Shown here: positions 4,658 through 63,416 of the stretch, one piece after another
How the letters are laid out: every line of letters begins with the position of its first letter
Position numbering within the stretch: position 1 is the first letter of the stretch
Origin: a virus
Length of the DNA stretch: 64,000 nucleotides
Direction: 5' to 3' (one strand)
IMG/VR virus record: IMGVR_UViG_3300042890_005336
Coordinates: 1-64,000 of that record
Program-made: the position numbers and the translations under genes
Notes under the pieces: generated by a model
What the model was told of the DNA's origin: nothing
What the model saw: only the letters and a program-made list of their open reading frames with translations
The model's database searches: none

Positions 4658-5296
4658 TTAACCGCCAACGCCACTTACATTAGTTAATATTTGTCTTGCT
4701 ACTGCTGCACCAACACCTTGTTGAATACCACTATCAGTTGGTGTTTGTACTGCATTATCATAACGAATTGTTAATGAAATTGTAACAGGTTCATTTGTTC
4801 CATAATTTAAAGTGTTATAGTTTGCATTTTGAATAAAGCAACCATAAAGTTCCCAAGTTTCCAAAACTGTTGGAATATGAATACCACCACCTCCATCAAG
4901 AATTTGGATGGTAGTTTGAAACTTATAACTGCTACCTGCTGCTGCACTTGCTTGTTCTTCAAAATCAAATTGCTTTTGAATTTGTTCACCAACACGCATC
5001 GCTACAGCACCCGTTGCATCATCACGTAAGTTCAATGTAATTGCTTGCCACTCAGGTTTACCTGCCAAATATACACGACTATTATAAATTTCTAAAGGAA
5101 TCTCAGGAAAACTTACTTGCGGACGTGATACGTCAATAACCTGTTTAGTAAGTTCAGTAGTAGCTTTGTCAACACCAATATTTTGAAACAATACACGAAA
5201 ACGATATTGTAACTTTGGCATTAACAAACCTTGACTATCACCTCCTACATCACTGCCTACAGGCACTGTCATTTTTGAGATTGAAGTAAAACTCAT
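4658..5296 (-). CDS. 19: Tail tube protein gp19
   Basis: The tube is the inner channel through which DNA passes during injection. The 212-residue protein has MPKLQYRFRVLF, then SRPQVSFPEIPLEIYNSR and WQAITLNLRDD, then ELYGCFIQNANYN and TISLTIRYDNA. These strands are typical of gp19-fold tube subunits. It is slightly longer than T4 gp19 (163 aa). It lies directly downstream of the sheath gene, as in T4. It has its own GATAAATA promoter and a strong AGGAG ribosome site, which fits high late expression. Confidence 0.85.
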   Translation of the reverse strand: MSFTSISKMTVPVGSDVGGDSQGLLMPKLQYRFRVLFQNIGVDKATTELTKQVIDVSRPQVSFPEIPLEIYNSRVYLAGKPEWQAITLNLRDDATGAVAMRVGEQIQKQFDFEEQASAAAGSSYKFQTTIQILDGGGGIHIPTVLETWELYGCFIQNANYNTLNYGTNEPVTISLTIRYDNAVQTPTDSGIQQGVGAAVARQILTNVSGVGG

Positions 5297-5316
5297 TTTT
5301 ATTTCTCCTATACTTT

Positions 5317-5324
5317 TATTTATC
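5317..5324 (-). promoter_or_regulatory. T4-type late promoter (GATAAATA) for gp19
   Basis: The octamer lies 20 bp upstream of ATG 5296, and the leader carries TAGGAG. It gives the tube gene a transcript independent of the sheath gene. Confidence 0.7.
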
Positions 5325-5328
5325 TTAA

Positions 5329-5357
5329 ATTAGGAACCCAAAATATGGGTTCCTAAT
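5329..5357. terminator. 12-bp perfect hairpin between sheath and tube genes
   Basis: ATTAGGAACCCA pairs perfectly with TGGGTTCCTAAT around a 5-nt loop. On the minus strand it follows the sheath stop by about 10 nt but lacks a T-run; on the plus strand it is followed by CTTTTTT. It could be a terminator for antisense transcription, a weak terminator for gp18, or an mRNA 3'-end stabiliser. Confidence 0.6.
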
Positions 5358-5366
5358 CTTTTTTCA

Positions 5367-8300
5367 TTAAACACCTGCTGCAATTTCGCCTGTGTTCAAT
5401 ATACGAACAGGAATGTAAATGAATTCCACTGCCTTGACAGGTTCAATCGCTATATCAATCCATAATTGATTAGCATCAATTCTAGCAGGTGTGTTATTAC
5501 TTTCATCACATACTACGAGATAATCGTAAAGACCACGCTTTGACTGAACATCTGCTAACAATGTTTGTACGACAGCTTTTGCCTGTGAACGTGTAATCAC
5601 ATCATTAGGTTCGAAGATAAATGGACGAACTGCCTGTTGTAAACGCTCACGTAGGTAACATATCAAACGTGCAACATTCGTACGATCAAGTGAACTTTGA
5701 CTATCAAAGCTATTCTTATTACCAAAGTTGAGTAAACCAATATTGGTAAAGAATGCTACAGGATTAATAAAGTTTGTGTACTCAATATTACGTAATGCTA
5801 AACGGTTCTTTGTTACTACAAATTCGCCTGTTGCTGCATCAATGTAACCAATATTTGTTGCATTGTCTACAACACCTCGACGTTGACCTGCAGGAGCAAA
5901 CCATGGATAAGCAATTGTATCGTTACGTAAAATAGTACGTAATAACATATAGCTTGGTGGTAAAGCAACTGCTGCACCTGTTAAGTCACTGCCAATACAA
6001 CTTGGATAATATAATCCCATGTATGTATCACGTGTAACTAATCCATCTTCACCTGTTGATGTTGCTCCTGCTGCATTAGTTGCCCATGCAGAAATAGCGT
6101 TAGCATCATCAGCAAGACGCATTGGTGTATCACCAACAATGTATCCTGTTTGACCACGATCATTATTTAATGTGACCATGTTTGGCTGAAGCTCAGGATA
6201 ATTTGGTGTAGCAATCAAGTTAAAGTATGTGTCTTCTTCACGAACTGATTGGTTTGTATCAATTGCTGCTTTCATAGCAGATACAACCATTGCACGTTGT
6301 GCTTTACGACCCATATATGGAGCACCATTAGTCATATTTCCACTTGTTGTAACCCATGTATAACTAAACTCAGGTAAACTTCCAGGCGTTGTCGTTGGAC
6401 TAATATATGAACTTGCATTTGGATAATTTGTTTGTGTAAAATAATTAGTTCTAAATTGTTTTACGTTATAACCACTTCTACGTGTGTTGAATAACAATGT
6501 ACCACGTGGATATAGTGAATAACTTGGAGCATCCAAATCAATATAGTTACTTGATAACAAGCTCACAATTGTTGGGATTGCATCATTGACAGGGTCTACG
6601 CCACTGTTTGGTGCCCAACGTGCATCAGCAAATACTACACCATTTTCTGTAACTTGGTCAGTATTGTCAAGTAATACCCATTGTGCTAAACCACTAACTA
6701 ATTGCCAACGGTTAATTACAGGATAATTTTCAAGATCACTTGTATCAATCCAAATATCACCATATACTAAAGGTGTACCATCACTTTGTACTGTTGGTTC
6801 ACTTGCACTGATGATTGGACCTGCAGGGTCGGTTGTACCTGTTGCAGTAGTTGACCACAAACCATTTGTACCATAAGTTGCGTTACGATATCCAACCCAC
6901 TGTGTACCTGTGTTGACCATGATATCAACTTCATCAACAACACTGTAATACCAATTTGTATTATTTGTTGGTAGCGTTACAGGACGAATATCATTTGACT
7001 CATAACTAAATTCTTGCCAATTACTTAATGCAGTCATGTAGGAAGGTGTCATTTGTCCACCATAAGGTAACAATGAAACAATTGCTCCACCTGCTGCTGT
7101 TACATAAGCTGTTATTGTACTTGTTACGTATGGAGTTAATGATGAACCACCTAAGGTAACAATATCACCTGTTACATAACCTGTACCACCTGATACACTG
7201 ATTGAGCTAATTGTATAACCTGTGTAAACAATACCTGTTACAGTTGCTCCTGTACCTGTACCACCTGTTACAGTAAACGTACCTGCTGTAGGTCCTGATG
7301 TTTGTAAGGTTACTTGAGACATTGGGCCTGGTTTGCTGCCTGTAGGTGCTCCTGTTGTTGCACTTAAAGACAAACCTGCGATATCAATTGCACTGTTTGA
7401 ATATGCATTATCATCTAGAAGAATTTGACCACCCTCAGTATGAGTCAATACAATTGCTCCTGTGCCTGATACTGATGCTGTGGTATAAGGTATATTTGCT
7501 GCTGACCATGCAGCAACAAAATCTGATGCACCTTTAGCTGCTACAGTAGCAGGTAATGAAACTACATAACGTGGTGATAACGATGAACTACCAGGCATAC
7601 TCACATACACACCAAAAGTTGATGCCCCTGTGCTAAAATTAGGACTTGTATTTGTACCTGTGAATGTTGATGCACCTGTTGCACTTCTACGGAATAATTG
7701 AATAGGTGCTGCGTTATCTGTTGCACCGAATGAATATTGTGCATATAGTGTGTTTACTGCAATATTTTTACCACCTGCTGAGTCTAAATCAGCACTTGCG
7801 CTTGCATCATCCAAATATAATGGGCATGCTAGTGAAACAAAAGTATCAGTTGCTGCCACATAACGACTTGTTACTAAATTTGTACCTAAGTTGGCACTAT
7901 TAGTTTTAATCCACAAGCTTCCTGTTGGACGTGCTGTAGCACTTGCTCTCCAATTTGGTTGTTGAGCGTTTGTACCATAAAATACTGTAGGAGCATTATA
8001 TGTACCAACTTGGAAACCAAATTGTGCCCAATGTGTTCCGCTTGCACCATCTGATAAAGTGATGGTTGAATCATATAATGAACGTTGGAAAATATTAACA
8101 CGATTGTTTACAACAACAGCTTTTAATAATGGCACATCAGGAATTGCATTAATTGCTGCTGCCAATGTTGAGGCATCAATACCTGAAGCAAAAGTTTCAG
8201 TAAATGTTTTTGCACCACGTGTTACAGAAATTGTAAGATTGTAAGATGTGCCTGGGGTGACTGCGCTACCTTGTAATATAGGCACTGAGCTTAACCAATC

Positions 8301-57114: not shown

Positions 57115-57936
57115 ATGGAAAACAACCCACTAAAGCAGTATTTTAGAAGACCTGCTATACATATTCGTTTGCCAAGCAATCATCAATACACATCTGACGT
57201 GGTTGATTTTCCACCAACAGGAGAGTTACCTGTATACCCAATGACAGCAAATGATGAAATTACAGCACGTACACCTGATGCCTTATATAATGGTTCAGCA
57301 GTAGTTTCTATTGTCCAAAGCTGTGTTCCTTCTATTAAAAATCCTTGGGCTTTACTAAATTCTGACTTAGAAACCATACTAATTTCCATAAGAATTGCTA
57401 CTAACGGTGATGAAATGGATGTTGATACTACGTGCCCTAATTGTAAAAACTCTAATCGGTATGGTATCAACCTTAGTAAATTATTATCAACAATTACTAT
57501 TGGCAATTATAACGAAGAACTAGTAGTTGGAGATTTAGCAATAAAGTTTCGTTCTATTACCTATCAAGATAACAACACTGCAAGTGCTGAACAATTTGAA
57601 ATACAACGTGGACTAGCACAATTAGAAAACTTTGAAGATGGTGAGGCTAAGAATAAGGCAGCAAGTGAATTATTAGTACGTATGAACACACTTACACAGA
57701 AAATACTTGCTAGAAATATTGAATATATTAGAACACCTGAAACATCAGTAGCTAATCAACCATTTATTTTAGACTTTTTACAGAATTGTGATAAAAAAAT
57801 GTATGATTTAATACGTGATCACAATATTGAGTTACGTGAAAGTAGTCAATCTAAGCCACTAAGGTTTAAGTGTGTTAGTTGTCAACATGAATATGATCAA
57901 ACCATAACATTTAGTGTTACCGATTTTTTCGAATGA
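57115..57936 (+). CDS. 26: Baseplate hub protein gp26
   Basis: gp26 takes part in assembling the central baseplate hub. The start NPLKQYFRRPAIHIRLPSN, GELPVYPMTANDEI, RTPDALYNG and VVSIVQSCVPSIKNPW are characteristic of the gp26/T4 baseplate family. The protein has a zinc-binding pair of CxxC knuckles (C107/C110 and C253/C256), usual in the marine members. The 273-residue length is somewhat longer than T4 gp26 (208). The last bases overlap the next ATG by 4 bp. Confidence 0.85.
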   Translation: MENNPLKQYFRRPAIHIRLPSNHQYTSDVVDFPPTGELPVYPMTANDEITARTPDALYNGSAVVSIVQSCVPSIKNPWALLNSDLETILISIRIATNGDEMDVDTTCPNCKNSNRYGINLSKLLSTITIGNYNEELVVGDLAIKFRSITYQDNNTASAEQFEIQRGLAQLENFEDGEAKNKAASELLVRMNTLTQKILARNIEYIRTPETSVANQPFILDFLQNCDKKMYDLIRDHNIELRESSQSKPLRFKCVSCQHEYDQTITFSVTDFFE

Positions 57937-58160
57937 GGCTTCTCTATCTGTCTCAAGATGACATAGAGAAGCTAGTAAAAACCTACGAAGACGAAGTTAC
58001 TACCATCAAACGCAATGCATTAAAAGCTGCATGGTACATGCGTGGCTCATTATCATATGTTGATGCCATGAATCTTTCACCATCTGAGACTAGTATTATT
58101 AACAAGTTGATTGATGAAAATCTAGAAGTTACTAAGAAAAGTGGATTACCATTCTTTTAA
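57933..58160 (+). CDS. Small baseplate hub-associated protein
   Basis: The 75-residue helical protein contains AAWYMRGSLSYVDAMNLSPS and ends NLEVTKKSGLPFF, a sequence type that follows gp26 in many marine T4-like phages and is sometimes labelled gp51-like. It overlaps gp26 by 4 bp (ATGA), which implies coupled translation. A hub assembly role is inferred from position. Confidence 0.65.
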   Translation: MRLLYLSQDDIEKLVKTYEDEVTTIKRNALKAAWYMRGSLSYVDAMNLSPSETSIINKLIDENLEVTKKSGLPFF

Positions 58161-58178
58161 GATGACCTAACGGTCATC
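58161..58178. other. 7-bp hairpin directly after the hub gene stop
   Basis: GATGACC and GGTCATC pair perfectly with a TAAC loop, beginning on the base after the stop codon. No T-run follows, so it may stabilise the mRNA 3' end or begin the structured region. Confidence 0.6.
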
Positions 58179-58183
58179 TATTC

Positions 58184-58231
58184 GTGTACTAGCTTACGCT
58201 ATCGCTACAGCTACGTACACTCATTTTTTTC
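58184..58231 (+). terminator. Rho-independent terminator of the gp26 operon
   Basis: GTGTAC-TAGCT pairs with AGCTA-(C)-GTACAC, an 11-bp stem with one bulged C, followed by TCATTTTTTTC on the plus strand. It separates the hub genes from the non-coding island. Confidence 0.75.
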
Positions 58232-58750
58232 TATTATTATTTTTTTGCCTATTTCTTTTTTGCAAAAAGGTGGATAAATGTAAAGTTAATTGCATATATC
58301 CACGATTTATAATCTTTCTTCCCTGCCTACTTGCGTAGAAGGTGCTCACTTCGTGTATTTTACTCAGGTAGGTTTGACTATGTCACCCCGAAACTTGTTA
58401 ACAAGAAATACACCGCATACACTGTAAAGTTAATAACCGCAGTGAGTTAGTTATTAACACAGTCTCGACCCTTTTCCACTATCATCATGATCGAGCACTT
58501 GGTAAAAAAATAGTATCTTTACCCCAACCTACTTTACAGTAGATCCAACTATTACGACAATAGAAACGTGATATACCTTGGGTATCCGTTTAAGCGTCCT
58601 TGTAACCATAATGGTTTTTCGGATAGTCTATTGAAGATGCTGTAGAACTCAGCTAAGGCATTGACCAACTTTCATCAGTTTACCTACGTTGCGTTACTAG
58701 GTCATGCAACCGTACCCATTGTTCTATAAAACAGCCCTTAGTTTGAGACC
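58232..58750. ncRNA. Candidate large structured non-coding RNA
   Basis: About 510 bp without a convincing reading frame on either strand, about 40% G+C by my count over 58321-58740, above most neighbouring coding sequence. Perfect or near-perfect helices include GTGGATA/TATCCAC (58270-58303), ACTGTAAAGT/ACTTTACAGT (58421-58430 with 58531-58540, 10 bp), and inside this GTTAATAAC/GTTATTAAC (58429-58458), AGTCTCGA/TCGAG(C)ACT (58461-58499) and GGTAAA/TTTACC (58501-58523). Further helices are CTATT/AATAG (58549-58563), AAACG/CGTTT (58564-58591), AACCA/TGGTT near 58604-58616, and TAC-GTTGC/GCAAC-c-GTA (58685-58714). CTCA.CTAAGGC (58648-58659) pairs with GCCcTTAG..TGAG (58734-58747). Strand is unresolved: a GCAA tetraloop favours minus, while GATAAATG at 58273 and the upstream terminator could favour plus. 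Confidence 0.55.
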
Positions 58751-59250
58751 TGAGAATGTTTTTTGAATATACCTGAGTTGAGAGTGAAAAATGTGTCTAA
58801 TTCTGAGATAATCCATACACCGTAATCAGGACTTTTATATACCATATAACTTGGTACATCCCACTTTACAGTGTCTTGGACAGCAATGTAACGACCTTTA
58901 TGATTAAATTTCATAAACAGCACGTTTAAGTCATGCTCGTCGCTTACATCTAATAGTTGTTGTAACCAACCATTCAATACTTTGCAATTAGTTAGTAGTT
59001 GATGAAAAGGAAAGTCTCCATAGTTTTTGCATTCAATATTGAGCAATGGAAACGACACCCCAGGTATAATATCCCCCTTAAAGCTGCGTACCTGCCCTTC
59101 ATGCAATACTTCTTTACGTCCCTTATTTGATCCACCAACATATGCGCCACTATTTGGAACACGAATAAAAGATTCATTATACCTATCACTTAAGTATTTT
59201 GCAATCTCTCGTTCAAAACTACTTCCTTTAATTTTACTTGCTGATGGCAT
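58738..59250 (-). CDS. PD-(D/E)XK nuclease, Holliday-junction-resolvase-like
   Basis: The 170-residue protein has KGSSFEREIAKYL (E13), RVPNSGA, FKGDII (D60) and LNIECKNYG (E73-x-K75), the active-site pattern of archaeal Hjc-type resolvases in the PD-(D/E)XK superfamily. It could resolve recombination branches before packaging, a job done by gp49 (endonuclease VII) in T4. It lies 16 bp downstream of gp46, matching a recombination role. Its stop lies inside a predicted helix of the adjacent non-coding island. Confidence 0.75.
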   Translation of the reverse strand: MPSASKIKGSSFEREIAKYLSDRYNESFIRVPNSGAYVGGSNKGRKEVLHEGQVRSFKGDIIPGVSFPLLNIECKNYGDFPFHQLLTNCKVLNGWLQQLLDVSDEHDLNVLFMKFNHKGRYIAVQDTVKWDVPSYMVYKSPDYGVWIISELDTFFTLNSGIFKKHSQVSN

Positions 59251-59266
59251 AATCCCTACTTATACC

Positions 59267-61432
59267 CTATGCTGCCAAACTATTTTTTTCATTTGACAAC
59301 TGATAACTTGTAAACCCACCTTCTTTGACCACTTGTAGCACGTTAGTTACACGACTTACAAGCTCATCACGATGTGAGATTAACCAAACTGATTTGTCCC
59401 TGCGTCTGCCTAATTCTTTAAATAACATGACCGCATTTTCTACACCAACACTATCTAACCCATTATCAATCATTTCATCAACAAATAATAAGTTGATACC
59501 TTGGTATAAATTTTCCCATACATCCCTAAAAGCAAATGATAGGGATAGTATTAATCTTGTACTTTCACCACGACTAAAGTTACCATAACTTAGCTCACGA
59601 CCTAATTCAGTAATTTCTACCGATAAATCGTTTTGAAACTTCACACGATGTGGTAAACCCATCTTATCTAAATAATGACTCAAACGTGAATTCAAATAAT
59701 TTAGATTTTGGTCAATAATTTTCTTACGCAAAAAGCTTTTCTTATTGGTCAGTAAATCTAACAAATATTCTTGGTGCTTTAACATACGTGTTAAATCATT
59801 CAATTGATCATATGACACTACCGCAATACTATTAGTCATCATGTCATTAATTTGCTCTGCATAAGGATCAACTTCTTCAAAACGCTTTTCTAACGCTTGT
59901 TCCAACTTTTCAACAGTGCTTTGATGCTTTAAAGCTGCTTCTAAAGTACTGTATATGGTAGTAGGCTTATCACCTAACTCACCTACCTCTAACTTTACGT
60001 TGTCATATTGTTCGTTTAGTGCATCAATATCATTGTCATGAAGTGTTGTAGTTTGTTGAAAATCTTGCTGTAATTTCAATGTTTTTTCAGATAAAGAGTC
60101 AATAGTTGACTTATGATTTAACGCTTCTTCTAATGTTTTATAGTGTACAGCAGGAATTGTTGGTATATTACCAATATCTTTAAGTATAGTATTATATTCT
60201 TTTGCCTGATTTTCTGCTGTACTTAATTCAGTTTTCAGTTCAGCTAAACGATCTTCTTTGTTTTTTAGCGTAAGCTTATGTGTTTGATCATGATAATCTT
60301 GACCACATGCATAGCATTTATGATCATGTAACTTCACTAATTCTTCGTTAATAGTTGCAATTTCTTTATTCAACCGTGTACAAGTAGCATTGCTAGCATC
60401 AAATAATTTCTTAGTATTATCTCTTGTAAGAGTTTTATCCTTAATTTCAGAAATAATTTTTAAGTTTTTAATTTCGATATTAATATCAATATTTTTTAAC
60501 GCATTCATCTGCGTAACTATTGCTTCTTTATTTTTCTTGTAAGTTATTACCGCATCATTATATCGTTTGTTTAATTTTGCTGTTTCCGCAGTAAAATGAG
60601 TTTTGGCATTGGTTAGCTTAGTATAATTTTCATTATACTTTGATAGTGTGCGATGTGAGGCAAGTTCTTGTTGAATATCAATTTTGTATAATTCAACTAA
60701 TTGATTCGTATAATTGGCAACATCCTCATCTTTTTTGGTAATCCATAGTGCTTGTCTACGCTTAAGATTATCAATTTGTTCTTGTATTTTGGTGTTTGCG
60801 TCTTGCAACCCACGTATTTTAAATTCTTCTTGTTGAATTTGATCTTTTACTGAACGATTTAATTCTTTAATACTTTCTGCTTTTTCTGAAAGTATAGTAA
60901 TACCAAGTAATTGTTCAATAATTTCACGTTGGTCTGCTGCTTTAAGTGCTAAAAATGGTTCATTATAAGTGTTTAAGGCAACAGTATGCTTAAACATCTC
61001 AGAAGAAATTCCAACAACGGATTCAATTGCAAGCTGTGTTTCACGACTATCTCCTTGACTTTCATTTTCATCTTCTGAGAATTCTTGCTCAGCATTATCA
61101 ACATAAAATTTAAGTATATTTGGTTTACGACCACGTTCAATACGATATTCTGTGCCATTTACCTCAAAGTCTAAAGTAACTAACATATGTTTACCGTTAG
61201 TCAGGTTAATTAAATTATCTCTTTTAATATTATTAAGTACGCTACCATATAATACATAGCACAATGCTTGAATAATCGTTGATTTACCTGTGCCATTACG
61301 TGCACCATCACCGCCTAAGTCACGATTTTCACCAAGAATAAGTGTTAAATCGTTGCGAGCAAAGTTAATATACTGTGATACTGCACCAACAGATAAGAAG
61401 TTTTTAATCGATAGTTGTTTTATAATTATCAT
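59267..61432 (-). CDS. 46: Recombination exonuclease subunit gp46 (Rad50-like)
   Basis: gp46 is the SMC-type ATPase of the gp46/gp47 complex that resects DNA ends for recombination-dependent replication. The 721-residue protein has a Walker A GARNGTGKST (about 43-52), long coiled coils with a CYACG zinc hook near residue 372, an ABC signature FSRGESTRLILSLSF (about 618-632) and Walker B NLLFVDEMIDNG (about 645-656). The start overlaps gp47 by 4 bp. T4 gp46 is 560 residues, so the coiled coil here is longer. Confidence 0.95.
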   Translation of the reverse strand: MIIIKQLSIKNFLSVGAVSQYINFARNDLTLILGENRDLGGDGARNGTGKSTIIQALCYVLYGSVLNNIKRDNLINLTNGKHMLVTLDFEVNGTEYRIERGRKPNILKFYVDNAEQEFSEDENESQGDSRETQLAIESVVGISSEMFKHTVALNTYNEPFLALKAADQREIIEQLLGITILSEKAESIKELNRSVKDQIQQEEFKIRGLQDANTKIQEQIDNLKRRQALWITKKDEDVANYTNQLVELYKIDIQQELASHRTLSKYNENYTKLTNAKTHFTAETAKLNKRYNDAVITYKKNKEAIVTQMNALKNIDINIEIKNLKIISEIKDKTLTRDNTKKLFDASNATCTRLNKEIATINEELVKLHDHKCYACGQDYHDQTHKLTLKNKEDRLAELKTELSTAENQAKEYNTILKDIGNIPTIPAVHYKTLEEALNHKSTIDSLSEKTLKLQQDFQQTTTLHDNDIDALNEQYDNVKLEVGELGDKPTTIYSTLEAALKHQSTVEKLEQALEKRFEEVDPYAEQINDMMTNSIAVVSYDQLNDLTRMLKHQEYLLDLLTNKKSFLRKKIIDQNLNYLNSRLSHYLDKMGLPHRVKFQNDLSVEITELGRELSYGNFSRGESTRLILSLSFAFRDVWENLYQGINLLFVDEMIDNGLDSVGVENAVMLFKELGRRRDKSVWLISHRDELVSRVTNVLQVVKEGGFTSYQLSNEKNSLAA

Positions 61433-62445
61433 AGATTTTTATAGATATTGAGCAATAATTGCTTGTCAAACTTACCCTCATCAAGTTGTTCAATTTGGGA
61501 TAGTACTATAGCATCAACGGATTCAAATTGCAAATTGGCTTCAAAATTATTGTCAGTTTCAATATCCACTCGTTGTGGAATCATAGTCATTTCACGCAAT
61601 TTATATTCTTTCATAATTGTTTCCTTTATGCTGCTAGACTCCTCATAACTTATATCTGTATCAATAGTGATGCGTAAACACCCATTTTGAATCAGTAATG
61701 AGTCAGGGTTTTCTAAAATTTGTGTTAAATTATATGTACGAAATTTAGGTTGATTAGGCCACGAATGATAAGTTGGTTTATCGCCCCATGCTAGTATCAT
61801 CATGCCACGATCATCATCATTTACATCACTATAATTATGCGGAAATGCGTTACCAATATATGTGATGTTTCCTTTTGTTTGGCGTTTATGAAAATGTCCT
61901 GTAAAAACATGGTCAAAATGTTGTAGTTGATTACGATTGATTTCACCATGATCAGGCATTTCAACCATAGCATTCATATAGAATGATGGTAATTCAAAGT
62001 GACCAAACAAGTATTGTGCGTTTAACTTTTGTAATTTTTTATAATCTTCACCAATAAGCCATGGTGCAATGATGCAATCCCCATCAACAATCCAATCGTT
62101 ACAAATAATAATTCGATCAAGGTGTTTTGCCCATTCCATACTCTGTACATCACGACGATCTCTATAATACAAGTCATGATTACCCACGATGAAATATATT
62201 TTTTCAAAGTTTTCATTGAGTTTTTCTAGTGCCCGTAAACTATAATTTTGTGTTAGTACATTAATTGTTGCACGATTATGGTTCCAATCACCTAGAAAAA
62301 AACATGTTTCACACCCATGTTTTTTAGCGGTTGCTATAAACCATTCGACAAATTGTAAGCAGTCTTCGTTATGTTGTATACTATTGTTCTTTAGACCAAA
62401 GTGTATATCGGTAAAAACTGCTGCTTTTTTAAATAAATTAGTCAT
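61429..62445 (-). CDS. 47: Recombination exonuclease subunit gp47 (Mre11-like)
   Basis: gp47 is the metal-dependent nuclease partner of gp46. The 338-residue protein has phosphoesterase motifs: FTDIHFGL (D13, H15), FFLGDWNHN (D53, N55, H56), VGNHDLYY (N89, H90, D91), and later HFDHVFTGHFHKRQ. Length equals T4 gp47 (339). It overlaps gp46 by 4 bp. The C-terminal end (EQLDEGKFDKQLLLNIYKNL) would contact gp46. Confidence 0.95.
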   Translation of the reverse strand: MTNLFKKAAVFTDIHFGLKNNSIQHNEDCLQFVEWFIATAKKHGCETCFFLGDWNHNRATINVLTQNYSLRALEKLNENFEKIYFIVGNHDLYYRDRRDVQSMEWAKHLDRIIICNDWIVDGDCIIAPWLIGEDYKKLQKLNAQYLFGHFELPSFYMNAMVEMPDHGEINRNQLQHFDHVFTGHFHKRQTKGNITYIGNAFPHNYSDVNDDDRGMMILAWGDKPTYHSWPNQPKFRTYNLTQILENPDSLLIQNGCLRITIDTDISYEESSSIKETIMKEYKLREMTMIPQRVDIETDNNFEANLQFESVDAIVLSQIEQLDEGKFDKQLLLNIYKNL

Positions 62446-62484: not shown

Positions 62485-63372
62485 TTAGGATTCCTCAGCA
62501 AATTGACGTGACCAACTTGGATTTAACCCGTTAGCCTCTAGTATGTCATCACGTATACCTTGATTTTTCTTTTCTGTGTTCAATACTCGACAGAAAGAAT
62601 TAGTAATGGCTGCGGTATAATACGCAAAAGGATTGCTAGATTTAGCTTCGTTAAATCGTAAACCAACATAAGTCAACTGTAAAATTGCTGCGCCACGCAT
62701 TTCATCATTATAGGTATAACCACGCCAATTAAACCTCATGGCATATTTTTCACACAGCATAAGATACATTTTTGCTAATTTGTTAGTAATTTGCCCTTTA
62801 TCTTTGTCAAAGTGCCCTGTATAGATATCTCCCTGCCAATGTGATTTACCAACACAATACATTTGGTTACCTGCTTCAGCATAGCGAAAATGTTGGAATG
62901 GTGGAAAATTAACACGAACATGACTCATATCGTTCATGCCCATTTCTTTGTTTAGTTTAGGATCATCTAAATCCTCGTAAGTTACTTCTTCATCCAAATC
63001 AAATTCAAATAATTCACGTGCTGATTTCTTTTTGTCTACTTTTCTAGCTTGTTTTGGTGCAAGTGGTATGTGATCCCATGTCATCACTCTGAAAACTAAA
63101 TCAATATGGTCAATAGTGCTTGGGTCAATTTTAGTACCACTTTCAACTCCTAAACGATACGCACGATTTTCTTTTGCTTTTTGGATAACTTCAGGACGTA
63201 ATGCAATGGCTAAGCTATTTTCAAGTGATACACCTTCTTCATAATCAATAATGTAATCATATTGATGGTCTTCAGGTTCTCGGTAACTGCAGTAAGTATT
63301 TTTGCTTAGGTGTATTTCTTTTAGTATGTCCTTATTATTAAGGTAGTTAAGGGGTTTTTTAATGACTGTCAT
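62485..63372 (-). CDS. 55: Late-transcription sigma factor gp55, with N-terminal extension
   Basis: gp55 directs host RNA polymerase to TATAAATA late promoters. Residues about 190-280 (NKLAKMYLMLCEKYAMRFNW, RGYTYNDEMRGAAILQ, NPFAYYTAAITNSFCRVLNT) match the sigma-region-2-like core of T4 gp55. About 190 extra residues precede it, making 295 against 185 in T4. I use ATG 63372 rather than the in-frame GTG 63408, because a sigma-70-like promoter would start transcription near 63381. The gene lies downstream of divergent late gene 63532. Confidence 0.82.
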   Translation of the reverse strand: MTVIKKPLNYLNNKDILKEIHLSKNTYCSYREPEDHQYDYIIDYEEGVSLENSLAIALRPEVIQKAKENRAYRLGVESGTKIDPSTIDHIDLVFRVMTWDHIPLAPKQARKVDKKKSARELFEFDLDEEVTYEDLDDPKLNKEMGMNDMSHVRVNFPPFQHFRYAEAGNQMYCVGKSHWQGDIYTGHFDKDKGQITNKLAKMYLMLCEKYAMRFNWRGYTYNDEMRGAAILQLTYVGLRFNEAKSSNPFAYYTAAITNSFCRVLNTEKKNQGIRDDILEANGLNPSWSRQFAEES

Positions 63373-63387
63373 AGGGTTCCAAATGTT

Positions 63388-63416
63388 ATAATACCTGTAT
63401 TGTTGCACAGTTACAA
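63388..63416 (-). promoter_or_regulatory. Host-type sigma-70 promoter for gp55
   Basis: On the minus strand TTGTAA (63416-63411) and TATTAT (63393-63388) are spaced by 17 bp. They match the -35 and -10 boxes at 4/6 and 5/6 positions. This fits gp55 being made before late transcription. Confidence 0.6.

Follow-up and report, generated by a model that had tools for sequence, protein, structure and literature searches.

Large and complex RNAs of unknown function are rare, and three that have been solved—i.e. GOLLD, ROOL, and OLE—proved surprising. GOLLD, a noncoding RNA of large size and intricate fold whose function is unknown, occurs in phages and prophages, and ROOL is a large ornate phage RNA with no known protein partner; both form homo-oligomeric cages of RNA only. 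According to passages of one study, many GOLLD members exceed 800 nt, the ROOL studied measures 659 nt, both are often found near tRNA islands, and GOLLD, ROOL, and OLE form RNA-only assemblies (PMC12286853). The same passages put the abundance of ROOL in one strain on a par with that of 16S rRNA, and describe binding of GOLLD to ribosomes in pull-downs (PMC12286853). Among known RNAs, the element described here (type A) comes closest to GOLLD and ROOL in its size, complexity, and association with phages, and it shares with them its large and ornate structure. By contrast, type A is shorter, at ~466 nt as judged from its conservation and terminator-like end, and ARAGORN detects 0 tRNA genes in the window—i.e. 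the whole stretch of 64,000 nucleotides analyzed, from a virus record of 83,173 bases—although proximity to tRNA islands is no absolute criterion for these RNAs.

Searches with Rfam covariance models also separate type A from known families, as 0 of 4227 families reach their gathering score in the window and in ten related loci. Relaxed Rfam searches give only matches far below threshold and, for positions 58100–58850 at E ≤ 5, one unrelated match of 17 bits, which is at chance level. A more distant comparison is ColE1 RNA II, a structured RNA of ~550 nt that primes plasmid replication, and the origins of T4 likewise use R-loop transcripts as primers. The likeness of type A to RNA II, which lies beside an origin, is a functional analogy only; RNA II belongs to a plasmid origin, and any priming by type A would be hypothetical. 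Full-text searching of open-licence papers, judged by title and the start of the abstract, found none on the RNAs reported here. A passage of PMC13282480 treats the noncoding RNAs of PhiKZ, PMC6892783 and PMC7824862 gave no match for noncoding-RNA terms, and PMC13070987 yielded passages on terminal repeats only.

The window belongs to an uncultured, T4-like phage and is densely coding, with stop-free runs of 100 or more codons over 96% of its length. The largest stretch left uncovered by these runs is 57934–58740, inside which a conserved 75-aa gene lies, and the next largest measures 272 bases. The preliminary description had proposed a stretch without coding capacity at 58232–58750. We find that such a noncoding gap exists and holds no credible gene, but that it runs over 577 bases from 58161 to 58737, between a plus-strand and a minus-strand gene, and that the end first proposed overlaps the last 13 bases of the endonuclease. 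The features of the locus are as follows.

57115–57936, plus strand: gp26-like baseplate hub gene (Pfam T4_baseplate, E 2e-16)
57933–58160, plus strand: 75-aa gene, convergent with the RNA, with conserved synteny
58161–58220: two hairpins between the RNA and the convergent gene (58161–58178 and 58184–58220), from a fold of the gap
About 58264–58729, most likely minus strand: structured RNA gene, type A, ~466 nt, from a five-homolog alignment with 17 helices
58738–59250, minus strand: PDDEXK_15 endonuclease gene (Pfam PF24608, E 3.3e-24), directly upstream of the RNA and on the same strand
59267–61432, minus strand: gp46-like recombination ATPase (SbcC type)
61429–62445, minus strand: gp47-like nuclease (SbcD type), by Pfam Metallophos (E 0.0001) and position beside gp46
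62485–63408, minus strand: late-transcription sigma factor (phrog_12791, E 1e-66), upstream of gp47 and on the same strand

The two hairpins at 58161–58220 are probably terminators that lie outside the RNA, and a GATGACC/GGTCATC-type hairpin is visible in the aligned relatives.

Searches with gp46, the endonuclease, and gp26 gathered 140 loci, and the gap has homologs in four other phages (L016/L032, L004/L034, L003/L033, and L113), with blastn identities of 68–86% computed with L032–L034 and L113. The flanking genes stand in the same order at all four loci. A further contig (L002) carries a gap and genes identical to those of the window, and the type A set consists of five distinct sequences (the window, L016, L004, L003, and L113). 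The gap is 85.9% identical to that of L016/L032, and the endonuclease gene is 74% identical at the DNA level in the same comparison. Motif scans of IMG/VR returned the same five contigs and no further true members. Specifically, L143, L146, L149, L336, L338, and L339, as well as L333 from bacterial genomes, were rejected with similarity confined to the surroundings of the motif. A covariance model of the 3′ domain (R1) matches 6 of 6 type A sources among the 40 searched (E ≤ 1.2e-44) and nothing else below E 1, which is no independent test given that R1 was built from the same sequences. Type A occurs once per record searched, the records being fragments of 14–158 kb, and the best other match within them has 12.4 bits (E 0.13), or E 0.036 with blastn.

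The conservation of the gap differs from that of its neighbor. On the RNA strand, the longest stop-free stretch among the five sequences is 55 codons. On the plus strand, one frame is open in all five (46, 81, 74, 67, and 58 codons), with ends that differ and no ATG near a common start. Amino-acid and nucleotide identities to the window in this shared frame are 72/90, 44/70, 55/68, and 34/62%—i.e. the amino-acid value is 13–28 points lower. By contrast, the two values are about equal in the endonuclease gene (76/74, 73/74, and 68/72%), and therefore the conservation of the gap is not that of a protein. A protein-coding gene in the gap was rejected on these grounds.

An RNAalifold consensus of the five sequences, from which one spurious 4-pair helix was removed before counting, holds 116 pairs in 17 helices, and 95.5% of its cells form standard pairs. 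Changes on both sides of the pair are seen in 27 of the 116 pairs (38 cells) against a shuffled mean of 11.4, a number reached by 0 of 500 shuffles, while the "further pair types" statistic is reached by 4 of 500. When the partner is slid by 1–3 columns, only 0–6 pairs show changes on both sides, in a comparison that favors the structure because the structure was derived from the same alignment. The consensus energy lies beyond that of 60 of 60 column-shuffled alignments on either strand (z −7.3 minus and −7.4 plus), and the region folds better than 100 of 100 dinucleotide shuffles on both strands (z −4.2 plus and −3.3 minus). At least two pairs with changes on both sides are found in helices 7–11, 13, and 17, and none in helices 1–3, 6, 12, and 15. 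The parts of the RNA, all on the minus strand and listed from its 5′ end, are given below.

58656–58710, minus strand: 5′ domain with helices 1–3 (58693–58710, 58656–58685, and 58664–58679); helices 1 and 2 are invariant and helix 3 varies on one side only, so the domain lacks support from changes on both sides
58638–58654, minus strand: helix 4, hairpin GCUG-AGUUCUA-CAGC; one pair exchanged between G-C and A-U on both sides, outermost pair failing in 2 of 5
58554–58637, minus strand: helix 5 (CAAUAGA/UCUAUUG, in relatives CAAUGGA/UCCAUUG), enclosing helices 6 and 7; one pair in helix 5 and three pairs in helix 7 changed on both sides
58526–58545, minus strand: helix 8, hairpin with a UGUAAA loop; 3 pairs changed on both sides
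58464–58495, minus strand: helix 9; 3 pairs changed on both sides, 100% of cells paired
58421–58463, minus strand: helices 10 and 11, a stacked hairpin; 6 pairs changed on both sides, 100% of cells paired
58344–58420, minus strand: helices 12–15, a long-range stem GUGUAUUU/AAAUACAC with inner hairpins; changes on both sides in three pairs of helix 13 and one of helix 14, none in helices 12 and 15
58326–58339, minus strand: helix 16, the CTAC-GCAA-GTAG hairpin; one pair changed on both sides
58264–58304, minus strand: helix 17 followed by UUUUU, a terminator-like 3′ end; 5 pairs changed on both sides, 78.5% of cells paired

The region of helices 12–15 also contains a segment, GAYAUAGUCAAACCUACCUGA, that is common to 5 of 5 type A sequences. 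Taken from the alignment, it is highly probable, if short of certain, that the gap carries a conserved, covarying structured RNA.

This consensus bears on what the preliminary description had read from a single sequence. Its overall proposal, a large structured noncoding RNA that matches neither GOLLD nor ROOL and could be new, agrees with the covariation among homologs, the lack of any frame under amino-acid constraint, and the lack of an Rfam match at gathering score in the window. Neither of two refuting conditions that it had named, a lack of covariation and a conserved reading frame, applies. Its CTAC-GCAA-GTAG hairpin on the minus strand is likewise recovered, with a stem that pairs in 5 of 5 homologs and loops that differ and are not kept as GNRA. 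Where it had pointed to at least nine inverted repeats, a repeat finder lists 40 inverted pairs in 58100–59000, many of which are long-range and absent from the conserved structure. By contrast, its central architecture, a multibranch junction of three hairpins closed by a 10-bp helix (58421–58430 with 58531–58540), does not stand. The helix is perfect in the window, yet the number of its 10 pairs that can form is 9 in L016, 5 in L004, 4 in L003, and 5 in L113. Moreover, the arm at 58531–58540 belongs to helix 8, and that at 58421–58430 to helices 10 and 11. With the arms of this helix in other conserved helices and its pairing incomplete in relatives, the junction is most likely a chance pairing.

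The RNA most likely lies on the minus strand, because G-U exceeds A-C among the 87 pairs predicted on both strands (26 versus 7 cells, read on the minus strand) and because helix 17 is followed by a U-rich run on that strand, a run that is interrupted in L003. Folding energy was set aside as a guide to the strand: the minus strand has the lower energy, but so do its shuffles, which shift by the same amount on each strand. Similarly, the alifold z-score does not separate the strands (−7.3 vs −7.4), and each strand's consensus has 29 pairs with changes on both sides. The 5′ end given above is a guess from the start of conservation, ~9 nt past the stop codon of the endonuclease, and the 3′ end is placed provisionally by the terminator-like hairpin of helix 17, which is absent from the output of a simple terminator scan. 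Visual inspection shows AT-rich sequence after this hairpin in 5 of 5 type A sequences. No promoter is recognized between the endonuclease and the start of the RNA, and a general promoter scan is uninformative either way (14 matches against 13.5 expected). The sequence TATAAATA, which we take to be that of the T4 late promoter, has 3 sites in the 64 kb and 0 at the RNA.

A pair of AGG(T/G)CT repeats lies just upstream of the RNA (58731–58751, minus strand). It is present in all five type A phages, with three repeats in L016, occurs as a pair nowhere else in the window, and partly overlaps the codons at the 3′ end of the endonuclease. A reading of these repeats as a phage promoter was set aside; the pair may possibly be a regulatory site.

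Analysis of the gp46–gp26 interval in related phages also reveals that type A is one of several elements found there. From 141 loci, 125 spacers were kept, after dropping loci without both flanking genes or with a spacer of more than 1500 bases. By nhmmer matches above 30 bits anywhere in the locus, these divide into 13 of type A, 99 of type B, and 13 of neither, counts that include several loci from one contig. Removal of near-duplicates leaves 53 spacers: 5 of type A, 45 in a blastn cluster of type B and likely variants, some of whose links may run through coding sequence of long spacers, and 3 others.

Type B, from the corresponding interval of other IMG/VR phages, has the same flanking genes and strand as type A, and a strongly covarying core of 365 positions. 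Changes on both sides are seen in 39 of its 59 consensus pairs among 55 distinct sequences (alignment A3, i.e. 55 of the 58 type B references, with L166, L005, and L015 left out). In one domain, aligned from 31 of those 55 (alignment A5), 98.4% of cells are paired and 19 of 30 pairs change on both sides, which 0 of 500 shuffles reach. However, type B has no sequence or covariance-model match to type A, and the two form separate blastn clusters. For example, a type B model of a 151-position domain (R2), searched against 29 sources, has its best match in the window at 5255–5396, outside the RNA (14.8 bits, E 0.4). Type B occurs once in 13 of 14 long records, and the two short matches in the remaining one (G019), ~150 bases apart, are probably one copy; it is also single-copy in records of 352 and 364 kb. 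A CUCCUU segment is nearly invariant in type B (alignment A3, columns 45–50), where CUCC pairs with GGAG in the consensus; it presumably resembles the 3′ end of 16S rRNA.

Among the 13 spacers of neither type, L020, L029, and L030 are short or differently arranged, and the other ten are long, with an open frame of 142–154 codons. Six of these ten (type E; L009, L011, L017, L021, L023, and L138) were aligned at their 3′ ends, and 34 of 125 pairs show changes on both sides, in a set that is small and in which L138 aligns poorly. Beside type B, the interval in related phages carries a smaller RNA variant. By eye, the 5′ ends of types B and E resemble each other. Five of the six type E spacers share a GGGGGTACCGGTCAACCGCCTCC segment, and L138 has a diverged form of it. 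In L020 and L030, the endonuclease lies on the opposite strand. The spacer of these two phages opens with promoter-like sequence, after which comes a GGCATGGTAGACA(T/C)GCCCT segment common to both, possibly a short RNA.

Among cultured phages, those closest in gp46 and gp26 are jumbo phages, with protein identity below 60% in every record. In Sharanji (Asteriusvirus; L270, OR545507.1), the interval holds an 835-base gap. The core of this gap has matches in 41 phage records, and in 38 of these the match spans at least 25% of the query. When the ten nearest records are set aside, 31 remain: in 22 nothing is annotated under the match, in 7 hypothetical proteins are annotated there, and 2 records are unannotated. 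The element concerned (type C, of 121Q/GAP32/Munch-like phages) is a structured one of ~450 nt, in which 49 of 92 consensus pairs change on both sides and 17 fit poorly (25 copies from seven genomes, i.e. the nhmmer matches left after coverage and similarity cuts); its strands differ little in energy. Most of the copies shown have a TATAAT-like box ahead, and a terminator-like hairpin after.

Like type A, type C is found in the gp46–gp26 interval, as seen in Sharanji, Munch, and GAP32, and there it is on the gp46 strand as judged by its promoter- and terminator-like ends. Unlike type A, it is multicopy, has a promoter-like sequence ahead, shows no detectable homology to type A, and is parted from gp46 by an opposite-strand gene (annotated in Munch and GAP32 as recombination endonuclease or endonuclease VII), so that cotranscription with gp46 is not general. 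Searches of seven whole genomes (L270 and L271–L276), with neighboring matches grouped by the analyst, place type C at 4 sites in Sharanji, 5 each in Munch, GAP32, XaC1, XbC2, and Kaldavass, and at least 3 in RaK2, on one strand per genome. In each of the six genomes with 4–5 sites, the spacing is more even than random (CV 0.14–0.32, P 0.001 to 0.025), though these genomes are related and not independent.

The interval of PA5oct holds another apparently noncoding stretch (type D; L269:4205–5450, about 75.7–76.9 kb of NC_071039.1), with TTGACA-17-TATAAT near its start. Four annotated ORFs of 38–50 aa overlap the stretch, and these may not be genes. Two shorter copies lie on the same strand, one within an unannotated gap at 12.9 kb and the other at 246 kb. 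No homology is detected across the types: the type A model finds only type A among 40 sources that include types B to E, the type B covariance model has no match in any of types A, C, D, and E, and nhmmer profile searches agree. The shared interval and the probable strand are the sole link of type A to the other types.

How might type A work? The reading we prefer, to which we give an even chance as a whole, is that of an RNA gene whose product is a trans-acting structural RNA, encoded as the last element of the late sigma-gp47-gp46-endonuclease run and ending in its own terminator. Transcription from the minus strand would reach the RNA at the end of this run, because its conserved part starts so close behind the endonuclease stop codon and no promoter is recognized there. 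Judged by promoter- and terminator-like sequence, the elements that cultured phages carry at the corresponding interval are likewise on the gp46 strand. It would then be released by its own terminator, perhaps with trimming by nucleases, and the released RNA would act in trans during infection as a large structural RNA (a scaffold, RNP, or RNA oligomer). The neighboring genes point to a possible role in replication, recombination, or the switch to late transcription. A riboswitch-type leader is disfavored, because no co-oriented gene follows type A; the next gene downstream is convergent in the window and at the type A loci.

The same short distance to the endonuclease, together with the terminator-like hairpin, would also suit the 3′ untranslated end of the gp46-endonuclease mRNA, a structure that stabilizes or terminates the operon transcript and has no role in trans. 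We consider this unlikely, given that 17 helices and long invariant unpaired segments exceed what a terminator needs, and that promoter-like sequence stands ahead of types C and D, with type C copies also far from gp46, although homology of these types to type A is undetected.

We judge it rather improbable that type A is instead a replication-origin RNA—i.e. a structured primer that remains in a persistent hybrid and from which leading-strand synthesis starts in AT-rich DNA just downstream. The AT-rich stretch in all five sequences, the recombination and replication genes nearby, and the 4–5 evenly spaced same-strand copies of type C in 6 of 7 genomes, which would fit several origins, all speak for such a primer. 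However, cumulative GC skew does not turn at the element in the window, and of the five copies in GAP32 the syntenic one alone exceeds the 95% range for local changes in skew, in a stretch in which the skew as a whole turns around. Furthermore, type B is single-copy, type A has one copy per record (in fragments of 14–158 kb), the relatedness of the six type C genomes means that they do not count independently, and a terminator at the end of the RNA fits poorly with priming. The regular same-strand copies of type C are the one observation for a role at DNA, and no homology of type C to type A is detected.

A host-directed decoy, in which the RNA binds host RNA polymerase, the ribosome, or a defense protein, draws on the finding that phage RNAs of large size can reach high abundance or bind the machinery of the host, as reported for ROOL and GOLLD, respectively, in passages of PMC12286853. 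It also draws on the nearly invariant CUCCUU of type B. Type A, however, has no such conserved segment, and a decoy alone leaves the fixed genomic site unexplained, which makes this reading quite doubtful. A group I intron or other self-splicing element is extremely improbable, since the segments GACUA and UAGUC, which are conserved in 5 of 5 sequences and which we take to resemble the R and S core consensus (P7), include an R-like part that lies partly within covarying helix 5 and so does not qualify as P7, no Rfam intron matches up to E 5, and no gene is interrupted, as both the Pfam match of the endonuclease ORF and the length of this ORF in relatives suggest that it is complete.

The locus very probably adds a new RNA family at one conserved interval, matched by no known family and apparently overlooked by annotation; the corresponding element in Sharanji also carries no annotated feature. 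As cultured relatives exist with hosts such as E. coli K-12 MG1655 (from the Sharanji record), expression and deletion tests are possible. We also propose, tentatively and as the less probable outcome, that types A, B, C, D, and E may all have diverged from a single ancient core RNA gene that evolves fast, belongs to a clade of large T4-like phages, and is needed for genome replication or for its coupling to late transcription. In one cultured lineage this gene would have multiplied to 4–5 regularly spaced copies on the same strand, which is what one would expect if the RNA acts on the DNA close to its site of synthesis. If the types do share a role, this clade would depend on an RNA gene that protein-centered annotation has missed.
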